Assembly: GCA_029762595.1 (NCBI GenBank)
Contig: JARVGJ010000001.1
Span: 124,001-188,000, forward strand
Length of the DNA: 64,000 bases
Origin: Methanolobus sp.
GTDB taxonomy: Archaea; Halobacteriota; Methanosarcinia; Methanosarcinales; Methanosarcinaceae
Reading direction: 5' to 3'
Below, piece by piece: positions 5,856 to 51,829 of the stretch. Numbering within the stretch: the stretch's first letter is position 1; every line of letters starts with the position of its first letter. The notes below the pieces were generated by a model. It saw only the letters and a list, made by a program, of their open reading frames with translations. It made no database searches and was not told the origin of the DNA. Made by a program: the position numbers and the translations under genes.

Positions 5856-6616
5856 ACAATGACCTCCACTATGTCCCCGCGCCTGATGGTCTCACGGAGG
5901 GACATAAGCCAGTTGTCAACCTCACTTATCCTGCAGCAGACATCCTGCTCCTGCGAGCTTGTAGTGATGATATCGATCATGCCCCCGTTCCTGATGACGA
6001 TCCTGCGCGATGACATCAGGGCCAGCACCGGATCATGGGTTACCACAACAACGATCTTACCTTCGCCGGCCAGCAACTGGAGAGCTTCCTGCTTCTTTAT
6101 ACCTGCATTCTCTACCTCATCGATGAGCACCACAGGAGAATCACTGATCACAGCAATGTCTGCAGTCATGAGTGAGCGGGACTGCCCTCCACTTAGAGCT
6201 GTCAGGTGATGGTGGGGTGCTATCGGCTCCCCGGTCAGAGTATTCGCAAGTTCGATGACCCTTGTAACAAGACCTGCATCCTTGCCCCTGCTGCGTGCAT
6301 GCATTTGCAAGAACTCCTCAACGGTCATATCAGCCAGGAAATGCATCTTCTGGGATAGCTGTGCTACCAGTTTTCTGCGGGGATCCACGCGTATGTTAGC
6401 ATCAGGCCTCTCCCCATTGACCAGAATAGTCCTGCCGGTTGGTGTGTCCCCCTGGGCAAGCTGTTCGATATCATCTATAAGTGTGCTTTTTCCGGAACCT
6501 GTGGGACCAACTATCCCCACGATCTCCCCGCGGGAGATATCAACAGACCTTATTGCCTCTTCGGTTCCATCCTTGTCAACACCACCCAATATAGTAAGAC
6601 TGATTATTTCACTCAT
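5852..6616 (-). CDS. ABC-type ATPase of the CoM operon, no permease partner
   Basis: A 254-aa ABC ATPase with Walker A GPTGSGKST (about residue 37), signature LSGGQS (about 141), Walker B VVLIDEVE and H-loop THD. The protein is one ATPase domain without membrane segments, and no permease or binding protein is next to it. It is therefore more like a soluble ABC protein (repair, Fe-S assembly or reductive-activation type) than a transporter half. It starts 3 bp after the cysteate synthase stop and overlaps the GTPase gene by 4 bp. Its presence inside the CoM operon suggests an ATP-driven step, which is inference. Confidence 0.78.
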   Translation of the reverse strand: MSEIISLTILGGVDKDGTEEAIRSVDISRGEIVGIVGPTGSGKSTLIDDIEQLAQGDTPTGRTILVNGERPDANIRVDPRRKLVAQLSQKMHFLADMTVEEFLQMHARSRGKDAGLVTRVIELANTLTGEPIAPHHHLTALSGGQSRSLMTADIAVISDSPVVLIDEVENAGIKKQEALQLLAGEGKIVVVVTHDPVLALMSSRRIVIRNGGMIDIITTSSQEQDVCCRISEVDNWLMSLRETIRRGDIVEVIV

Positions 6617-6619
6617 AAT

Positions 6620-7885
6620 TTATACACCATCATCCTGTATACCAAATATTTCAGATACCTTTTCCACTATTCTTGCCTCTGCCCCTTCATCCTTTGCCGA
6701 CACCGCAAGGGATACAGGCAACTGTTTCAGTTCATGGTCCTGCATCAAGCGTTTTTGTCCACCACCAGTTATATTGAGAACGATCCGTTCATCAGGACTT
6801 ATATTACCAGCTTCCAGGGCCTGCACCAGTGTAGCAATGGCAACTGCAGCAGCCCGATTTATGTCTATTCCCTCACAATCCTCAAAGAGTTCCTGGGCCC
6901 GGGATGCTTCCTTGTTGCTTACCGCATAGAGAGTTCCACCTGTTGCCTCAAGGGCATCCCTGACACCGCCTCTAACTGCAAAAGGTGGTTTTCGGTTAAA
7001 GAGAACATCATCATACATCCCTCCTGGACATTCAGGGTCCACTGCATCAATACCATGCCACATAGAATACAGGGGAGCACATGGAAGACTCTGTCCAAGA
7101 TGCAGTTTTGGCAAAGTACTGCCAAAACTGCCATCTTCAAGCAATCTCATAGAAGCTTCCCATGCTGATATGCCACCGGTGCCACTTCCCACTGCCTGGA
7201 AATAATGATCAGGTAAGCTTTTGGATGTGAGAACAGCATCCAGCATCACAGTAGCCATGCCATCACGCCTGGCAACGTTTTTGGCACCACCCTCGTTGAC
7301 AAAACCTTCTCTGGATGCAATGTCACCCGCCAGGGATATTGCATCAAAATAATCACCTTCAACCGTCACAAGGCAGATAGAATGATTATCGTCATGCAGT
7401 GTCCACAACCTGTGAGCGCTTTGAGCCGGAACCACAAGCAGTAAAGGTTGCCCGGTTATACTACACACATGGGCGAATGCCCTTGCGGTGTTTCCGGCAG
7501 ATGCCACAACCATTATCCTTTTTTCTTCCTGTTCCCTGAGTCTTTGCATGGTAGGGAATGACTCAAGGTCCTTGAAGGTACAGGTCATGAGATACGCTTG
7601 CTTTTCAGGCCAGTATCCATTAAAAGCTATCCACAGTTCATCAAGACCAAGAGCACTTGCAAGCCCCTTACTCCTGTAGGTCACCGTTCGTCCTGAACCC
7701 TCCTCAATGATACCACCTGTGGGAAGCCATTCGTAGTATCTCCATATTCCGGGCATATCCCTTGGAATCAACTGTTTTGCTGTGTAATGAGTACGAAGAA
7801 GAGAATCATCACCCCTTTTACAGCTCTGAGCATAGGGGTCGTGAACTTCGCCACACAGCAGGCATTTCACATTGTACTTATCCAT
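6620..7885 (-). CDS. Cysteate synthase (threonine synthase-like, PLP)
   Basis: PLP enzyme that makes L-cysteate from O-phosphoserine and sulfite, the entry step of CoM biosynthesis in Methanosarcinales; the family evolved from threonine synthase. An N-terminal Cys pair (CLLCGE) and a later Cys resemble the zinc-like N-terminus of this family. The ASAGNTARAF stretch, the AVGSGTGG loop and the ITGGGQKR C-terminal loop fit a fold-II PLP enzyme. It is followed directly by five genes ending in comDE, which supports cysteate rather than threonine synthesis. I place the start at ATG 7885 because a TATA box lies about 26 bp upstream, giving a leaderless message of a 421-aa protein; the open frame itself extends 30 codons further upstream. 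Confidence 0.87.
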   Translation of the reverse strand: MDKYNVKCLLCGEVHDPYAQSCKRGDDSLLRTHYTAKQLIPRDMPGIWRYYEWLPTGGIIEEGSGRTVTYRSKGLASALGLDELWIAFNGYWPEKQAYLMTCTFKDLESFPTMQRLREQEEKRIMVVASAGNTARAFAHVCSITGQPLLLVVPAQSAHRLWTLHDDNHSICLVTVEGDYFDAISLAGDIASREGFVNEGGAKNVARRDGMATVMLDAVLTSKSLPDHYFQAVGSGTGGISAWEASMRLLEDGSFGSTLPKLHLGQSLPCAPLYSMWHGIDAVDPECPGGMYDDVLFNRKPPFAVRGGVRDALEATGGTLYAVSNKEASRAQELFEDCEGIDINRAAAVAIATLVQALEAGNISPDERIVLNITGGGQKRLMQDHELKQLPVSLAVSAKDEGAEARIVEKVSEIFGIQDDGV

Positions 7886-7905
7886 ACATCGAATGTGGAC
7901 AGAGC

Positions 7906-7915
7906 TTTTATAAAC
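7906..7915 (-). promoter_or_regulatory. TATA box of the CoM operon
   Basis: On the minus strand GTTTATAAAA ends about 20 bases before ATG 7885. Archaeal transcription starts about 25 bp from the TATA centre, which falls at or next to the ATG, so the six-gene CoM message is predicted to be leaderless. Confidence 0.55.
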
Positions 7916-8019
7916 ATTGCCCTTTTGGACGTATAATTTTCCTTTTAGGGACAAATAAAAATAGTAAATGTACAATCGGGATTCAAATTAGATGTGCAGT
8001 AATATAAATGTGAAGATGA

Positions 8020-8742
8020 TCAGTTTTTCTTACTCTGTATCTCGCGATATATCTCTTTACCAGTGATACTTCCCATCATGTAGAAATTATGTATCTGTGG
8101 CCCGAGTCCATCTATCACATGTTTGATGGAACCAAAACTCCGTGATAATTTATCAGCCTGCCCTTCTGTTATCGCAGCACCTTTCTCATACTCGAAATAG
8201 TCTTCAAGGATACCATCAATTACGCCCTTGAAATGCCAGTCCTGCACAGACGATGGATTTATTCCGATTGAGATCTTGTACAACTTCAATATATCACCGT
8301 GCATGCCAAGTCCGGCTAATGCTATCAGTTTACCGGCAAGTGATTCCAGTGACTTCGGGTTACTCTCCAGCATCGAATCGTAAATATGAAGGGACTTATC
8401 AAATTCCGACAGCTTGTTCAGAAGCATACCATAGTGGTTCTGTATCATTACATCATCAGGGAATCTATCTGCAGCCTCTTTAAGATATGAAAGAGCTTCT
8501 TCGTTCCTGTCCACCATTTCAAAGACCATGGAGGTCTGCAGATATCTGTCCTTTTCATCTTCTATCTGCATCAGGAAAGCTTCTGCAAAACCAATGCCTC
8601 GCTCTGTCTGCTTCATCTCATGGTAGGTAGCAACTATCCTGAGAAGGGTTTCCATACTGGGAGTAGCACTAAAACTTTCCTTCAGACTGCGCAACTCAAC
8701 TTCAGGTGTGTCCTGCTCATTAGTATCATTATTTTCTTCCAT
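8020..8742 (-). CDS. Small cytoplasmic TPR-repeat protein
   Basis: A 240-aa protein with several tetratricopeptide-like helix pairs between residues about 20 and 200 (patterns such as RYLQTSMVFEMVDRNEEALS and NHYGMLLNKLSEFDKSLHIY). No signal peptide or membrane segment is seen. The ATG at 8742 is preferred over one six codons upstream because a TATA-like TTTTTAAAAGC lies about 26 bp before it, giving a leaderless transcript. TPR proteins are protein-binding scaffolds, but partners cannot be inferred. It is the first of three TPR genes within 8 kb. Confidence 0.75.
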   Translation of the reverse strand: MEENNDTNEQDTPEVELRSLKESFSATPSMETLLRIVATYHEMKQTERGIGFAEAFLMQIEDEKDRYLQTSMVFEMVDRNEEALSYLKEAADRFPDDVMIQNHYGMLLNKLSEFDKSLHIYDSMLESNPKSLESLAGKLIALAGLGMHGDILKLYKISIGINPSSVQDWHFKGVIDGILEDYFEYEKGAAITEGQADKLSRSFGSIKHVIDGLGPQIHNFYMMGSITGKEIYREIQSKKN

Positions 8743-42765: not shown

Positions 42766-43479
42766 TTACGTCCTTTTAAGAGAGATCTCCGTTCCATCTA
42801 TACTGTACTCGAACCAGGGAGTTGGTTTTGAGGTCATACCTACCACTCTCATAGCATAGGCATCCCCTACAGCCTTGATCTCGACCATGCCGTCAAATAG
42901 TTGTTTTAATGTGGCTATGGTCTGTGCATCATGCATTTCATCTTCCACTACATACAGGCCAAAACCATTCGCGGCTTTTACGCGTCCGGTGAAGACATGA
43001 AGAAACCTGAAAACGGTCTGTATGTTAGAATACATAAGTATTGTAGACAATGAATTAATGCATAGGTGAATTTTTTTCTTTTGCTTTCTAACCAGCATCT
43101 CTTCAAAGAACTGACTTATCTTCACCCCGATGCCTGTAAGATCGACCGGACTTGATGCCCTTTTTATCTTATCGGTATCTGCAGCACCAAGGCCCAGGGT
43201 TTTAGTTACACAGTCAACTACACCAATATCTGAATTCAAAACGTCTACACCATTATCCTCAAACCAGCCAAGTACACGTTCTCCGGGTTCGCGTGTGGAT
43301 ACTATGATAGCTGAATCTTCAGAGTCCTGACTATTAAGATCCTGACTATTAAAAATAATCGCAGCCAGAAGATCATCTTTTTGGCTCATAGGCGGACCTA
43401 TCATCATTAGGTTAGTTCCTTCCCGGATACTGCCAAGCAGTTCATCCAGTTCCTTGATGCCTAAAGAGTAGCCGGACAT
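42766..43479 (-). CDS. RecA-superfamily (KaiC-like) protein with degenerate P-loop
   Basis: A 237-aa protein with the start SGYSLGIKELDELLG, as in RAD55/KaiC proteins. Where Walker A should be it reads GPPMSQKDDL, lacking the Gly-Lys-Thr/Ser, and Walker B is poorly formed (KKIHLCINSLSTI). It is therefore unlikely to hydrolyse ATP in the normal way and may be a sensor or scaffold. Related inactive copies are frequent in Methanosarcinales. Function unknown. It stands alone. Confidence 0.72.
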   Translation of the reverse strand: MSGYSLGIKELDELLGSIREGTNLMMIGPPMSQKDDLLAAIIFNSQDLNSQDSEDSAIIVSTREPGERVLGWFEDNGVDVLNSDIGVVDCVTKTLGLGAADTDKIKRASSPVDLTGIGVKISQFFEEMLVRKQKKKIHLCINSLSTILMYSNIQTVFRFLHVFTGRVKAANGFGLYVVEDEMHDAQTIATLKQLFDGMVEIKAVGDAYAMRVVGMTSKPTPWFEYSIDGTEISLKRT

Positions 43480-46043: not shown

Positions 46044-46652
46044 ATGGAAGATTACGAAGCGCTGCTGGATCGTGCAATAGCAAACTTACCAGACATGGAG
46101 ACTACGGATGCCCGTTTCGTAATCCCCGAACCAAAAATAATGGTTGAAGGTAAGACCACTATCCTTGATAATTTCAACAACATTGCAGATGTCCTTAACA
46201 GGAGCCCCGACCACCTGATGAAATACCTGACCCGTGAGATGGGTACAGCAGGTAAGATCGAAGGCTCAAGGGCCATATTCCAGGGAAGGTTCTCAAAGGA
46301 ACAGATCCAGTCAAACATCGGAGCCTATGTAGAGGAATTCGTTATGTGCTCTGAGTGTGGAAGGCCCGATACCCAGCTTGTAAAGATGGACAGGATTATC
46401 GTATTGAAATGTGCAGCTTGCGGAGCACATAGGCCTGTAAAGAAGAGAAGAGCTACCGCGCCGGTCAAGCAGGATTCCGTTGAAGAAGGAAAAGAATATG
46501 ATGTCCGTATCGATGCTGTTGGTTCCAAAGGTGATGGAATCGCAAAGATGGACAAATTCACTATCTTCGTTCCGGGTGCTGCAAAAGGTGATACTCTTAA
46601 GATCCGCATTAAAAGAATCAGTGGAACCCTTGCGTTTGCTGAGAAAGTATGA
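46044..46652 (+). CDS. Translation initiation factor aIF2 beta with C-terminal TRAM domain
   Basis: A 202-aa protein. Residues 1-135 are the aIF2-beta domain with the zinc ribbon CSECGRPDT ... CAACGAHR; the subunit works with the alpha and gamma subunits to bring initiator tRNA to the ribosome. Residues about 145-202 add a TRAM domain ([20 protein letters not shown]), a beta-barrel RNA-binding fold. The fusion lengthens the usual roughly 140-aa factor. AGAGGGATTAAAG precedes the ATG. Confidence 0.92.
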
Positions 46653-46731
46653 TGCCTGAATTAACAGGTATCAATCCTTTTCTTTTCTGATGACATATTT
46701 AAAGTAACTGTTATATAACATACGTGTCGTA

Positions 46732-46740
46732 AATATATAA
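46732..46740 (+). promoter_or_regulatory. TATA box of the KaiC-like/radical SAM pair
   Basis: AATATATAA lies about 34 bp before ATG 46770, predicting a start near 46761 and a very short leader; GGGGAAAG sits just before the ATG. Confidence 0.45.
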
Positions 46741-46769
46741 AACACTCGAAAAAGACATCGGGGAAAGAT

Positions 46770-47555
46770 ATGGCACGAGTACCTACAGGGATACCAGGAT
46801 TTGATGAACTCATAGAAGGCGGTTTCATCGAGAATGACGTGATCCTCCTGACAGGCGGACCTGGTGCAGGTAAATCCACTTTTGGCTCGCAGTACCTGTA
46901 TTCAGGAATAATGCACCACAATGAACCGGGAGTTTACGTCACATTCGAAGAAACACCCGGCCGCATAATGAGAAATATGTGGAGGTACGGATGGGACATG
47001 GAACGCCTGGTCAAAGAGGATAAACTCCGCATAATACGAACAGACCCTATCGCATATGGCCGCTATATCAAGAAGAACATGGAAGCTGATACCAACGGTG
47101 ACCATGAAAATGCAACCCTGGAGACGGTGCTGAAGCAGATATATGCAAGCATCCGGGAGATAAACGCAAAAAGACTGTTCATCGATTCGCTTACATCATT
47201 AAAGATATCATCCGATCCTGTGGATGTAAGACATATCATACTTGAATTTATAAAAAATGTAGAGAATTTTGATTGCACCACCATAGTTACAAGTGAGATC
47301 CATAAAGATCCTGATAATTTCAGTGTTGAAGAATACCTCGCCGAAGGAGTTATCTGCCTTAAGGTATTCAGGATTGATGGAGAAAGGATCAGATCCCTTG
47401 AGATATTGAAAATGAGAGGTGTCAAGCATGATGAAGTGCTGCGCCCTTATATGATCACTGACAATGGGATCATTGTTTATCCCTACGAATCTGTTATTGG
47501 CAAGGAAGCTGATGTGTTCTCCTTCCAGAAATCTTCAATTTTAGGGGAAGAGTAA
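46770..47555 (+). CDS. KaiC/RAD55-like RecA-family ATPase
   Basis: A 261-aa single-domain KaiC-like ATPase. RVPTGIPGFDELIEGGF leads to Walker A TGGPGAGKSTF (about residues 29-39), a Glu pair follows in YVTFEETP, and Walker B reads KRLFIDSLTSL (about 134-144). Unlike the copy at 42.8 kb all catalytic residues are present. The next gene, a radical SAM enzyme, starts directly after its stop, so the two are co-translated. In archaea such ATPases act in signalling or assembly; the target is not known. Confidence 0.83.
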   Translation: MARVPTGIPGFDELIEGGFIENDVILLTGGPGAGKSTFGSQYLYSGIMHHNEPGVYVTFEETPGRIMRNMWRYGWDMERLVKEDKLRIIRTDPIAYGRYIKKNMEADTNGDHENATLETVLKQIYASIREINAKRLFIDSLTSLKISSDPVDVRHIILEFIKNVENFDCTTIVTSEIHKDPDNFSVEEYLAEGVICLKVFRIDGERIRSLEILKMRGVKHDEVLRPYMITDNGIIVYPYESVIGKEADVFSFQKSSILGEE

Positions 47556-48758
47556 ATGAAGGCCGATCAAAAAGGTTCAGACAGCAAGGATATCACATTG
47601 ATCTCAATACCCGGGCTCTCGATAAAAATGGATAAAAAAGCCGAGTTTGTCCAGCTCAAGGCACATGGGGCTTTACGTAAAGCATGTGCACCTTTCCTGA
47701 AAAAGATCAATCAGCGTTTAAAAGAAGAAAAACCTGCCTTTGTTAATGATGAAAGTGTGGTAGCTTCCACATGGCTTCCACCCATCCCAAGTAAAGCTTT
47801 CAACAGGTTGTTACTGGCTGAGATCCAGATAGCTCTTGGAAGATATATCCCTGAAACCGTTTCCTTTGAGATCACACGCAACTGCAAATGTAATTGTGAA
47901 CACTGTGTGGTCAGCGGAGGAGAAGGTGACCTTGATATCGACACTATGAAAAAGGCCATAGACGATGTACTTGACATGGGTGCGATGGTGATAGTCTTCA
48001 CAGAGGGGGACCCCATGCTGCGTGAAGACATATATGAACTGATAGATTATGTGGACAAGGAACGTGCCATAGTCAACATGTACACTCCGGGAACAGAGAT
48101 GACAGCTGAAAATGCAAAACGTCTAAAGGATGCCGGGCTGCACAACCTGCTGGTAAGTACCTACTCCACTGACCCATTAAAACATAATGCTGTACGCCGT
48201 CTGGATGGGGCTTTTGAGATGGCTACAAACGCGATGAAGATGGGACTTGAGGCAGGATTGCTTGTTACAATGGCAACTCATGTCTCGCCAAAGAACATAG
48301 ACGAATTACCTGCAATGTATGAACTTGCCAGAGACATAGGAGTACATGAGTTTTCGCTCTGGGAATCCGTACCAAAGAAAAAAGATGATCCGATCATCAC
48401 AGAGAGGGACAGGCAGAAAGTGCTTGAAATGTACAACCGCATAAATTCCACAAAAGGTGGGCCACGTATCTTTGCAAACACCTACTTTGAAGGAGAGATG
48501 CTCGGATGTATGGCAGGACAGAGATGGATGCATGTATGTGTCGACGGACAGGTAAAAGCATGCCCATACATTCCATTCAGCTATGGCAACATACAGAACA
48601 GCTCCATAAAGGACATCTGGAGCAAGATACGCAAGGATAAGCACTTCAGAGGCCAGCGCAGTACATGCCTGATGCAGGAGCCTGAGTACCTCCGGCTTGT
48701 GGATAAGATACCTGAAGGCGCATCCAAACCTTACGATATAGAAAAGATCGAGTCTTGA
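47556..48758 (+). CDS. Radical SAM enzyme with C-terminal Cys cluster (SPASM/twitch-like)
   Basis: A 400-aa radical SAM protein. The cluster motif C-x3-C-x2-C reads NCKCNCEHC at about residues 109-117. A GDPML element and later a Cys-rich C-terminus (GCMAGQRWMHVCVDGQVKAC, near residues 318-338, plus a Cys near 370) could hold one further [4Fe-4S] cluster. It has about 95 N-terminal residues ahead of the barrel. SPASM-type enzymes modify peptides or heme/quinone precursors; no small peptide substrate gene is obvious next to it. Coupled to the KaiC-like ATPase; substrate unknown. Confidence 0.85.
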   Translation: MKADQKGSDSKDITLISIPGLSIKMDKKAEFVQLKAHGALRKACAPFLKKINQRLKEEKPAFVNDESVVASTWLPPIPSKAFNRLLLAEIQIALGRYIPETVSFEITRNCKCNCEHCVVSGGEGDLDIDTMKKAIDDVLDMGAMVIVFTEGDPMLREDIYELIDYVDKERAIVNMYTPGTEMTAENAKRLKDAGLHNLLVSTYSTDPLKHNAVRRLDGAFEMATNAMKMGLEAGLLVTMATHVSPKNIDELPAMYELARDIGVHEFSLWESVPKKKDDPIITERDRQKVLEMYNRINSTKGGPRIFANTYFEGEMLGCMAGQRWMHVCVDGQVKACPYIPFSYGNIQNSSIKDIWSKIRKDKHFRGQRSTCLMQEPEYLRLVDKIPEGASKPYDIEKIES

Positions 48759-49030: not shown

Positions 49031-50329
49031 ATGAACATGAAGATCGACCCCTGGAGTGCATTGAACATTGACGATTATTCCAAGTTGTTCGATGAATTCG
49101 GAATACTGCCATTTGATGATATGCTCAGGGAGATCGAGAATCCTCACAAGTTCATGAATCGTAAGATCATATTCGGACATCGTAGTTATGACCTCATAAC
49201 CGATGCCATGAAGAACAAAAAACCATTCTCGGTCATGAGCGGATTCATGCCTTCCGGGAAGATCCATCTCGGGCACAAAATGGTCATGGAAGAGATCATA
49301 TGGCACCAGCAGCAGGGTGCTGATGCATTTGTAGGGATCGCGGACCGTGAGGCACATTCTGTCAGGGGCATGCCCTGGGAAAAATGCCGGGACATCGGCA
49401 TAAACGAGTATATTATTAGTCTTATTGCTCTTGGATTTAATCCAGAAGGCCATATATATTTCCAATCTGGCTCAAAACAGGTAAAAGACCTGGCATTCGA
49501 ACTTGGTTCAAGGGCCAACTTCTCCGAACTCAGTGCGATCTACGGGTTCACAGGCGAGACCAGTGTCTCGCATATGCTTAGCGCAGTGACCCAGAGTGCA
49601 GACATACTCCATCCTCAGCTGGAAGAGTACGGAGGACCAAAGCCAACTGTCATCCCCGTTGGCGCGGACCAGGACCCGCACATTCGCCTTACAAGAGGCC
49701 TTGGTCACAAAATGAACATGTTCAAGATAGAAGGACGGGAAGATAAGGACGGGATCAGATATATGAGCGTTCGCAGCAAAGCAGCTCCGCAAGACGCCCT
49801 GAAAGAGCTGAAAGAACGCATTCCCGGCAGGGCTAAACTTTTTGAAGGACATGTGGATGTGTTTGATACTGATAACTTTGAAATGCTTCTGAATACTGTC
49901 AGGCAGGTAGAGCTTGAATTCGGAGGATATGCATTCGTGCCTCCTTCTTCCACATACCATCGCTTCATGTCAGGATTGCAGGGCGGCAAGATGTCAAGCA
50001 GCGTTCCCGACAGTTATATTTCACTTACCGAAGACCCAAAAGGTGCAGCAAAGAAGGTTAAAAGGGCAAAGACCGGAGGCAGGATGACCCTTGAGGAGCA
50101 AAAAAAACTTGGCGGTGAGCCAGAGAAATGCTCGGTCTATGAGATGTTCCTTTTCCACCTTGTGGAGGATGACGGGGAACTTGCCCAGATATATACCGAA
50201 TGTCGCCAGGGAAGCAGGGTTTGTGGCAATTGTAAAGCCCTTGCTGCACAAAGGACGGAAAAGTTCCTCAAAGAGCATCAGGAACTGCGGGAAGTCGCAA
50301 AGGACAGACTTGATGAGTACGGATTATGA
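49031..50329 (+). CDS. trpS: Tryptophanyl-tRNA synthetase
   Basis: Class I synthetase charging tRNA-Trp. The HIGH-type motif is in [12 protein letters not shown] (about residues 75-86) and the KMSKS-type motif in [10 protein letters not shown] (about 318-327); [12 protein letters not shown] is typical of archaeal TrpRS. Length 432 aa. A second in-frame ATG lies two codons after the first. It is followed by pheS after 21 bp. Confidence 0.95.
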
Positions 50330-50350
50330 TGAACAATTACAGGTGTGATT

Positions 50351-51829
50351 ATGAGCTCCCAATATAACCTTACATCCAACGAGAAGAATGCACTGCTTAA
50401 ACTGGAAAAACTAGAATATGCAAGCCCCGGTGAACTGGCTGACAAAGCAGGGATGAAAATGGAAACTGCAATGCAGGCTGCGTTTTTGCTAGAGGAGAAA
50501 GGACTTGCGCAGGTAGAGGAAACAGTAACCGAGATCTTTGAACTTACAAAGGAAGGCGAGAAATATGCAGATGAAGGCCTGCCTGAAAGACAGATCATCA
50601 AAGCGGTTTCAAAACCTGTTTCCATGGATGAGCTCAAAGAGAAGTTCAATCCTGCAGTTGTGGGTATTGCAACAGGATGGATGCGTCGCAAAGGCTGGGC
50701 AAGCATAGATAAAGGAATGATCCTTCCAACAGGCAATTGTGGTACTGGCCCGGACGAGCAGGTCCTTGCAATGTTTGCAGGGGAAAAGAAGACAGTTGAG
50801 GAGCTGGGAGCAGATAAGAGTGTCATAGGAGACCTGATAAAACGTAAGCTTGTTTCAAAGATAGAAGACAAAGAAAGGAAAATAACAATCACACAAAAAG
50901 GCAAGGACCTTGTTGCAGAAGGAATTGTTGTCGAGGAGGAACTGGCACAGATCAGTTCCGAACTCCTGAAAAGTGGTGAGTGGAAGAACAGGAAGTTCAG
51001 GCCTTACAACATCCACACAGCACCAAGACCCATATATGGTGCAAAGATACACCCCTACCAGCGCCTCATAGACCAGATGAGACGTATTTTCCTGGATATG
51101 GGATTCACTGAGATCAAGGGCGAAGTGGTACAGAGTTCTTTCTGGAACTTCGATTCACTTTTCCAGCCCCAGGACCATCCTGCAAGGGAAATGCAGGATA
51201 CGTTCCATCTTTCAAGTATATCAGAACTCCCGGAAGAATACAAGGACAGCGTATGTGCTGCACACGAGAATGGCGGGGAAACCGGATCAACCGGATGGGG
51301 TAGCAAGTGGAGCGAGGAAATTGCCTGCAGGAACGTTCTCAGGACACATACCACTGCACTGACCATCAAATACCTTGCAGACAACCCCGAACCTCCGGTC
51401 AAGGCCTTCTCCATAGACAGAGCCTACCGCAGGGAGACCATCGACCCCACACATACGCCTGAGTTCGAGCAGCTTGAGGGTGTTGTGATGGACAGGGACA
51501 TGTCATTCTCAAACCTTCTGGGATGCCTTTCCGAGTTCTACCACAGAATGGGCTTTGAAGATGTGCGCTTCCGGCCCGGATATTTCCCATACACAGAACC
51601 AAGTGTAGAGCCAGAAGTATATGTGGAAGGTCTGGGCTGGGTGGAACTGGGAGGAGCAGGTGTTTTCAGGAGAGAGGTCACCTATCCCCTGGGCATCAGA
51701 TATCCTGTACTTGCATGGGGCCTTGGTGTTAGCCGCCTTGCCATGCTTAAACTGGGACTCAAGGACCTGCGCCAGTTGTATCACTCAGATATCGACTGGC
51801 TGCGCAAGAGCGAGGTATGCCAGCTTTAG
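50351..51829 (+). CDS. pheS: Phenylalanyl-tRNA synthetase alpha subunit
   Basis: Class II synthetase, 492 aa. An N-terminal winged-helix region (about 1-200) precedes the catalytic core. Motif 2 is in [14 protein letters not shown], a [11 protein letters not shown] segment is phenylalanine-specific, and motif 3 reads [13 protein letters not shown]. The ATG at 50351 has AGGTG 5 nt upstream; the in-frame GTG at 50345 does not. The beta subunit gene pheT is not adjacent. The stop codon lies in a strong hairpin. Confidence 0.95.

Follow-up and report, generated by a model that had tools for sequence, protein, structure and literature searches.

Many methane-making archaea carry electrons in their membranes with methanophenazine, a compound that has one reduced double bond in its chain. 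The futalosine route to menaquinone (MqnE/MqnC, MqnA/D, UbiA) is an oxygen-free carrier pathway that uses radical SAM enzymes, periplasmic-binding-fold enzymes and a UbiA prenyltransferase. Radical SAM enzymes such as AhbD, BlsE, PqqE and MqnE/MqnC need no oxygen to take off carboxyl groups or to form bonds between carbon atoms. By analogy, this is the kind of step that would be needed to make phenazine from a carboxylated precursor. The available part of PMC3017947 describes methanophenazine as a C25 chain ether-linked to phenazine and geranylfarnesyl diphosphate synthase (GFPS) as the known enzyme of the chain. Its biosynthesis is called unidentified or undeciphered in the available portions of PMC6315138 and PMC8546582. 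The literature searched, as listings and full-text portions of mostly open-access papers, linked no radical SAM protein to methanophenazine biosynthesis, and a search combining KaiC, radical SAM and Methanosarcina returned no match. Where three of these papers mention radical SAM, they deal with other proteins.

Here we describe three radical SAM paralogues of the class Methanosarcinia, RS1, RS2 and RS3, starting from an RS1 gene that adjoins a KaiC-like ATPase. We propose, with a probability of about 0.7, that the trio takes part in making a membrane electron carrier of the prenylated aromatic kind, methanophenazine in Methanosarcinales and Methanotrichales. The logic of such a pathway would resemble that of the futalosine route by analogy.

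The window locus and the RS1 protein

The window is the whole stretch of DNA analysed, 64,000 nucleotides from a Methanolobus sp. genome, and its radical SAM protein has its closest named relatives in Methanolobus. On its forward strand a KaiC-like, single-domain RecA-family ATPase of 261 residues (46770..47555; PF06745, E=5e-65) is followed by RS1, a radical SAM protein of 400 residues (47556..48758; PF04055, E=1.5e-15; SPASM PF13186, E=5.4e-7). An earlier note on this stretch had called the two genes there, and both are real, co-directional and abutting; the ATG of RS1 comes straight after the TAA stop of KaiC. Both are conserved as coding sequences, being 84–89% identical in the closest loci of Methanolobus. 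The spacing between them was read in 20 loci where both are called, the window among them, and runs from +26 nt to a nominal overlap of at most 122 nt, the overlaps being approximate since starts are those of the longest ORF.

Upstream lies the gene for translation initiation factor IF-2 subunit beta with a TRAM domain (46044..46652, +; 321.7 bits, cut-off 243). The intergenic stretch that follows (46653..46769, +) holds a terminator-like inverted repeat following IF-2 beta and, ahead of KaiC, a TATA-like stretch rich in A and T. Both elements align in eight Methanolobus loci, and a separate promoter and one transcription unit are therefore plausible. The earlier note had asserted one unit with one TATA box; the TATA-like stretch stands, and the single unit is best kept at plausible. 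An L10e-like gene also lies upstream of the pair. Downstream are two housekeeping genes that we take, from their sequences, to be tryptophanyl-tRNA synthetase-like (TrpS-like; 49031..50329, +) and phenylalanyl-tRNA synthetase alpha-like (PheS-like; 50345..51829, +), both of them syntenic neighbours. This translation-gene order is kept around RS1 with or without KaiC in most Methanosarcinaceae loci examined. The location of RS1 is therefore uninformative on its pathway. No biosynthetic gene adjoins RS1, either in the window or in those loci of Methanosarcinales and Methanotrichales that were examined. Nor was a precursor-peptide candidate recognised near it among window ORFs of at least 60 residues. 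The earlier suggestion of a small-molecule substrate looks like a good guess.

RS1 carries the CX3CX2C motif of the radical SAM superfamily intact at residues 110, 114 and 117, and these three cysteines are invariant among 21 aligned RS1 proteins, window included. Its GGEP-type motif reads EGDP. RS1, RS2 and RS3 have in common an N-terminal extension of ~95 residues, which precedes the radical SAM core and includes a P-x-x-P stretch. The C-terminal domain has just four cysteines (318, 328, 336 and 371) against the seven to eight of a full SPASM set. A truncated SPASM domain is defined as 'Twitch' in the available part of PMC10452713, and the RS1 domain appears nearer to Twitch.

An AlphaFold2 model built from the 21 sequences (mean pLDDT 78.8, pTM 0.83) predicts a radical SAM fold followed by an auxiliary domain at the C-terminus. 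A fold search matched residues ~77–386 to SkfB (Z 20.1 over 275 residues, rmsd 3.9), PqqE (18.6) and BlsE (18.0), and also to SuiB. The fold is the same as that of SkfB, PqqE and BlsE, but RS1 is 16–18% identical to them and no peptide precursor was seen among the ORFs of at least 60 residues. Assigning function from fold was abandoned, because the four matches lie within ~2 Z of one another and permit no choice. AhbD, MqnE and MqnC were not among the fold matches listed, and the menaquinone models MqnE/MqnC were not in the best 25 of 45 NCBIfam matches of RS1. The first ~65 residues are barely covered by PDB fold matches. Within them, residues 13–57, inspected for an N-terminal RRE, the winged helix of RiPP-maturing SPASM enzymes, are modelled as three strands and a helix.

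The trio, its gene neighbourhoods and its distribution

Besides RS1, the genome encodes two members of the family, with 38% and 34% identity to it (E <1e-69). The next protein is the genome's AhbD, at E 4.6e-26. A phylogeny built from 66 selected rows unites the window protein with its counterparts, also those from beyond the class, in a single RS1 clade (SH-aLRT 96). Within the class, RS2 is sister to RS3 (98). Outside it, the remaining two paralogues group by themselves (99) and are therefore not strict RS2 or RS3. Relatives are labelled here by family (f), genus (g), genome (G) and locus (L). Unusual members are a fourth, long-branch RS1-like gene besides the trio in L160 (G060, f6); a single RS2-like gene in L216, from the MqnE-carrying genome G256, that groups with an f3 gene and reflects contamination or transfer; and a single long-branch RS-like gene in G309.

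Inside the class, RS3 adjoins GFPS with a gap of at most 284 nt in all 64 testable genomes, six of them Methanotrichaceae-like. These come from 74 class genomes with a GFPS match, ten of which (two f1, eight f7) were left out as RS3 coordinates were lacking; RS3 membership was checked by best match or tree for selected loci. The RS3-adjoining protein matches the GFPS model NF040627 at 336.8 bits, under its cut-off of 600, which 13 of 343 genomes pass, all of g7. As a phylum-wide marker NF040627 was rejected, as 123 of 343 genomes match at 1e-60, trio-less families included, and only adjacency to RS3 was used. No GFPS match was found at 1e-60 in four genomes of f2. In f7, which we take to be Methanothrix/Methanosaeta species, GFPS adjoins RS3 in five of the six loci with RS3 called, L166 being the one without. 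RS2 is followed by a GGR-family (geranylgeranyl-reductase-like) reductase and a UbiA prenyltransferase in 10/10 long Methanosarcinaceae loci. UbiA is one gene away from RS2 in f6, and RS2 has no UbiA or GGR neighbour in the five f2/f3 loci and six f7 loci examined.

Outside the class, where RS1 orthologues occur in families f12, f16, f18 and f22, RS1 itself joins such clusters. All eight loci have a second RS paralogue adjoining RS1, a further radical SAM gene and a GGR gene. In six of the eight, three more genes lie no further than ~10 kb away: an NMT1/SsuA-like gene (PF09084), a gene of the UbiA family and a third RS paralogue. They belong to the cluster itself in L207, L209, L210 and L211, and are set off by intervening genes in L208 and L218. 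Family f16 has the same three together at a second locus, where UbiA was assigned by 60–62% identity to the L209 protein and has no Pfam match. The one UbiA protein tested matches PF01040 at 45 bits. The further radical SAM proteins are PTO1314-like, two tested scoring 146 and 135 bits against a cut-off of 306. GGR proteins of RS2 loci and of outside-class loci are 39–44% identical. The NMT1/SsuA-like protein is 54–88% identical to the L209 copy across L207–L211 and L218 (and L212–L215). The link of RS1 to the pathway would thus run through paralogy and these orthologues in four families. The earlier note could match its gene pair to no known pathway, and this can now be improved upon for the radical SAM protein, with its two paralogues and with orthologues outside the class in clusters that hint at a prenylated aromatic electron carrier.

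The RS3–GFPS locus of Methanosarcinaceae also has CcmE, heme (AhbD, AhbA/B, HemA) and ATP-synthase genes, and this shared respiration context could itself explain the linkage of RS3 to GFPS. In L091, a CcmE-like gene, GFPS and RS3 stand in a row (6082–8571, −) ahead of the operon for archaeal ATP synthase, and divergently oriented heme genes complete this grouping of respiration genes. The available part of PMC3017947 reports the heme and ATP-synthase context of GFPS in M. mahii, and the term 'radical SAM' does not occur in its text.

The trio might instead act in heme or cytochrome maturation, which we consider improbable. RS1 shares a radical SAM core and a C-terminal auxiliary-cluster domain with AhbD and NirJ, the radical SAM enzymes of heme b and heme d1, and AhbD (TIGR04545) and NirJ2 are the best NCBIfam matches of RS1, RS2 and RS3. 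CcmE and heme genes flank RS3–GFPS in Methanosarcinaceae, and CcmE adjoins RS3 in two of three f2 loci (L100 and L156, not L104). However, RS1 scores 143.4 bits against the TIGR04545 cut-off of 500, while the genome's own AhbD scores 598. RS1 also differs from AhbD and NirJ in its extra N-terminal region, in EGDP for GGEP and in its neighbours outside the class, which are prenyl-carrier genes. Families f4 and f5 lack the trio, yet f5 is taken to be Methanoperedenaceae (ANME-2d), and c-type cytochromes abound in ANME-2d. The five f7 loci noted above keep RS3 beside GFPS and have no labelled heme gene next to it. Heme maturation also leaves UbiA and GGR unexplained.

The distribution of the family was compared with that of the menaquinone enzyme MqnE. 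The RS family (E≤1e-35) is present in 160 of 191 class genomes, 150 of which have at least three matches and 152 a best match below 1e-100. The complementary 31 genomes are those of f4 (2) and f5 (29); 20 are listed as lacking the family, and absence in the other 11 is deduced, all 160 matching genomes being listed. MqnE (TIGR03700) exceeds its curated cut-off in exactly these 31 of the 191. Under that cut-off the model matches 188/191 class genomes at 1e-40, and only cut-off matches were counted in the class. Across the phylum, the RS family occurs in 89 of 343 genomes and MqnE in 67 at E≤1e-112, a limit of our own choice, with 10/343 exceeding the curated cut-off. Both markers are found in one genome (G256) and neither in 188. 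Unlike the analogy in logic, then, the genomic relation to the futalosine pathway is one of near exclusion. Within the class this contrast rests on two families, and so on few evolutionary events.

The distribution fits a trio tied to methanophenazine, with presence of the carrier presumed. PF02665 was tried as a marker for HdrE and was uninformative: it missed even G000 and matched 4 of 24 genomes, all of f10 and f33. No RS family match was found in the two f15 genomes listed (G203 and G212), which may be Methanocella. According to the available part of PMC9012536, ANME-2a/b/c and ANME-3 may use methanophenazine, and ANME-1 has futalosine menaquinone genes. In the Thermoproteota, 'Ca. Methylarchaeales' have a homologue of GFPS and some of them HdrDE (PMC9478090). 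The available part of PMC3087415 (2011) states that Methanocellales contain methanophenazine. Methanocellales are thus a possible exception, and we hold the carrier-pathway reading slightly lower for this reason (0.70 instead of 0.72).

Somewhat less probable again than heme maturation is a trio that modifies isoprenoid membrane lipids in the manner of Tes, Gms or calditol synthase, with GFPS, UbiA and GGR as paralogues from the lipid pathway. Members of the UbiA and GGR families are also employed in making archaeal lipids. Radical SAM enzymes act on archaeal lipids, according to the available parts of PMC11186832 and PMC10821996. But GFPS makes the C25 chain of methanophenazine and not the C20 lipid chain (PMC3017947, available part), and membrane lipids do not predict the contrast between RS and MqnE. 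In the RS1 fold search, Tes (7tol) reached Z 14.1, far below SkfB.

KaiC as a neighbour of RS1

Single-domain archaeal KaiC-like ATPases such as the UPF0273 protein PH0284 share one KaiC domain, a Walker A motif and a TFEE motif. The window ATPase has all three, with Walker A GGPGAGKST from residue 29, and its best PDB matches are KaiC proteins. Its one domain sets it apart from circadian KaiC, which has two. It differs from PH0284-type ATPases in sitting with RS1, and its best NCBIfam model scores 176.9 bits against a cut-off of 307. A second RecA/KaiC-like protein is encoded at 42766–43479 (−) in the window. It matches DUF7504 (102.9 bits) and DUF7090, has no NCBIfam match, and recurs in the same syntenic block in many relatives.

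The earlier note had treated the ATPase and the radical SAM protein as a functional unit, to be judged by conservation of the pair. RS1 is present in 49 of 60 relatives searched, 48 with a best match below 1e-100 plus G057, where it is in two pieces. KaiC lies within 50 nt of RS1 in 28 of these 49 genomes and is absent or elsewhere in 21. The carriers are 26 of the 27 genomes of g1, one of g4 and one of g6. The pair is therefore found in 3 of 18 RS1-bearing genera and not in the other 15. Counted by genus, this fulfils the note's own ground for refutation, a separation of the two genes in most relatives. It indicates that KaiC is no fixed partner of RS1, and the functional unit was dropped. 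Genus g24, outside the 60-genome sample, is mixed. Loci titled Methanolobus have the pair, and KaiC is missing from those of Methanohalobium and Methanohalophilus.

Of the 60 genomes, 36 have a KaiC orthologue (E≤1e-50): 28 Methanosarcinaceae, four of f3 and four of f5. All 28 in Methanosarcinaceae adjoin RS1. Those of f3 and f5 are 52–56% identical to the window KaiC; in f3 they sit apart from RS1, and f5 is a family without RS1. KaiC adjoins a 341-residue protein with no Pfam match in f3 loci L087–L089. In f5 loci L085 and L086 it is followed by two aminotransferase-like genes (class III and HisC-like), annotated in L085 and in the same clusters in L086. Next to an intact RS1, KaiC is in pieces in one Methanosarcinaceae MAG (L060, 3348–4112) and was not found in L055 and L059, a sporadic loss. 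KaiC is probably a lineage-specific accessory neighbour of RS1, possibly with a regulatory role. That KaiC and RS1 form an independent two-gene system, an ATP-driven partner feeding a radical SAM modifier of peptides or proteins, is the least probable alternative: the adjacency in all 28 Methanosarcinaceae genomes with this KaiC and the nearness of the RS1 fold to SkfB, PqqE, BlsE and SuiB favour it, but most RS1-bearing genera do without the pair, and GGR and UbiA genes accompany the RS1 orthologues found outside the class.

Loss of iron-sulphur ligands and the proposed pathway

In 37 genomes RS1 lacks both CX3CX2C and the C-terminal cysteines: 26 of g7, which we take to be Methanosarcina, four of g11, two of g2, two of g10, one of g9, and G194 and G195 of g36 (L228–L257, L070, L080–L083, L147 and L282). 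In two of the 37 proteins a single cysteine survives at one of the motif positions. The motif was missing from 39 of 99 rows in a first set, or 36 genomes after three duplicates, and a second set added G195; the other 60 rows and 19 of the 20 in the second set keep it. A tree of 42 selected rows, without G195, needs two losses, and ligand loss has occurred in at least two independent events. RS2 and RS3 keep CX3CX2C in all 44 loci checked, including those of g2, g7, g9, g10, g11 and g36. NCBI names a related type 'pseudo-SAM' (TIGR04347, a pseudo-SAM/SPASM protein). It matches RS1 weakly (98.8 of 525 bits), but RS1 forms a family of its own, with orthologous members that carry the motif or lack it.

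Median dN/dS of RS1 is 0.105 in g7, 0.128 in g11 and 0.061 in Methanolobus, and the aligned parts are free of stops. These values come from pairs with dS <1.5 (291 of 325, 6 of 6 and 22 of 105); g2 and g9/g10 gave none. They indicate that ligand-free RS1 genes are under purifying selection and are not decaying. Some RS1 rows do have an in-frame stop where they match the family (TAG in G126 and G060; TGA in G187, G189 and G190). Judged from its residues, RS1 of the window genus keeps its ligands and could be a catalyst. RS1 of the Methanosarcina clade, in turn, would be confined to the part of a non-catalytic partner or a repurposed protein. Because its clusters are lost there, RS1 radical chemistry would seem not to be needed in Methanosarcina, the source of methanophenazine. 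RS1 may therefore have a structural role in an RS complex.

In the carrier pathway that we propose, GFPS would make the C25 chain. A UbiA prenyltransferase would join it to the aromatic head group, and the GGR-family reductase would reduce one double bond of the chain. The head group, or a precursor of it, would be worked on by the radical SAM proteins in steps that need no oxygen. RS1 would either catalyse a step that is dispensable in Methanosarcina or act mainly as a partner of RS2 and RS3. A bolder version, which we regard as rather unlikely, is that the trio forms a heteromeric radical SAM machine that makes the phenazine head of methanophenazine without oxygen and is unrelated to bacterial Phz; RS1 would be its scaffold, catalytically dead in at least two lineages and still essential.

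The trio, the UbiA protein and the GGR-family reductase offer a short candidate list for a pathway called undeciphered in papers of 2018–2024, as far as their available portions go. Outside the class, the further radical SAM protein and the NMT1-like protein would be added. These candidate genes are testable in a genetically tractable methanogen. The repeated loss of RS1 ligands under purifying selection, with the ligands of both paralogues kept, makes RS1 a clean case for the study of the function of such a protein without its cofactor.
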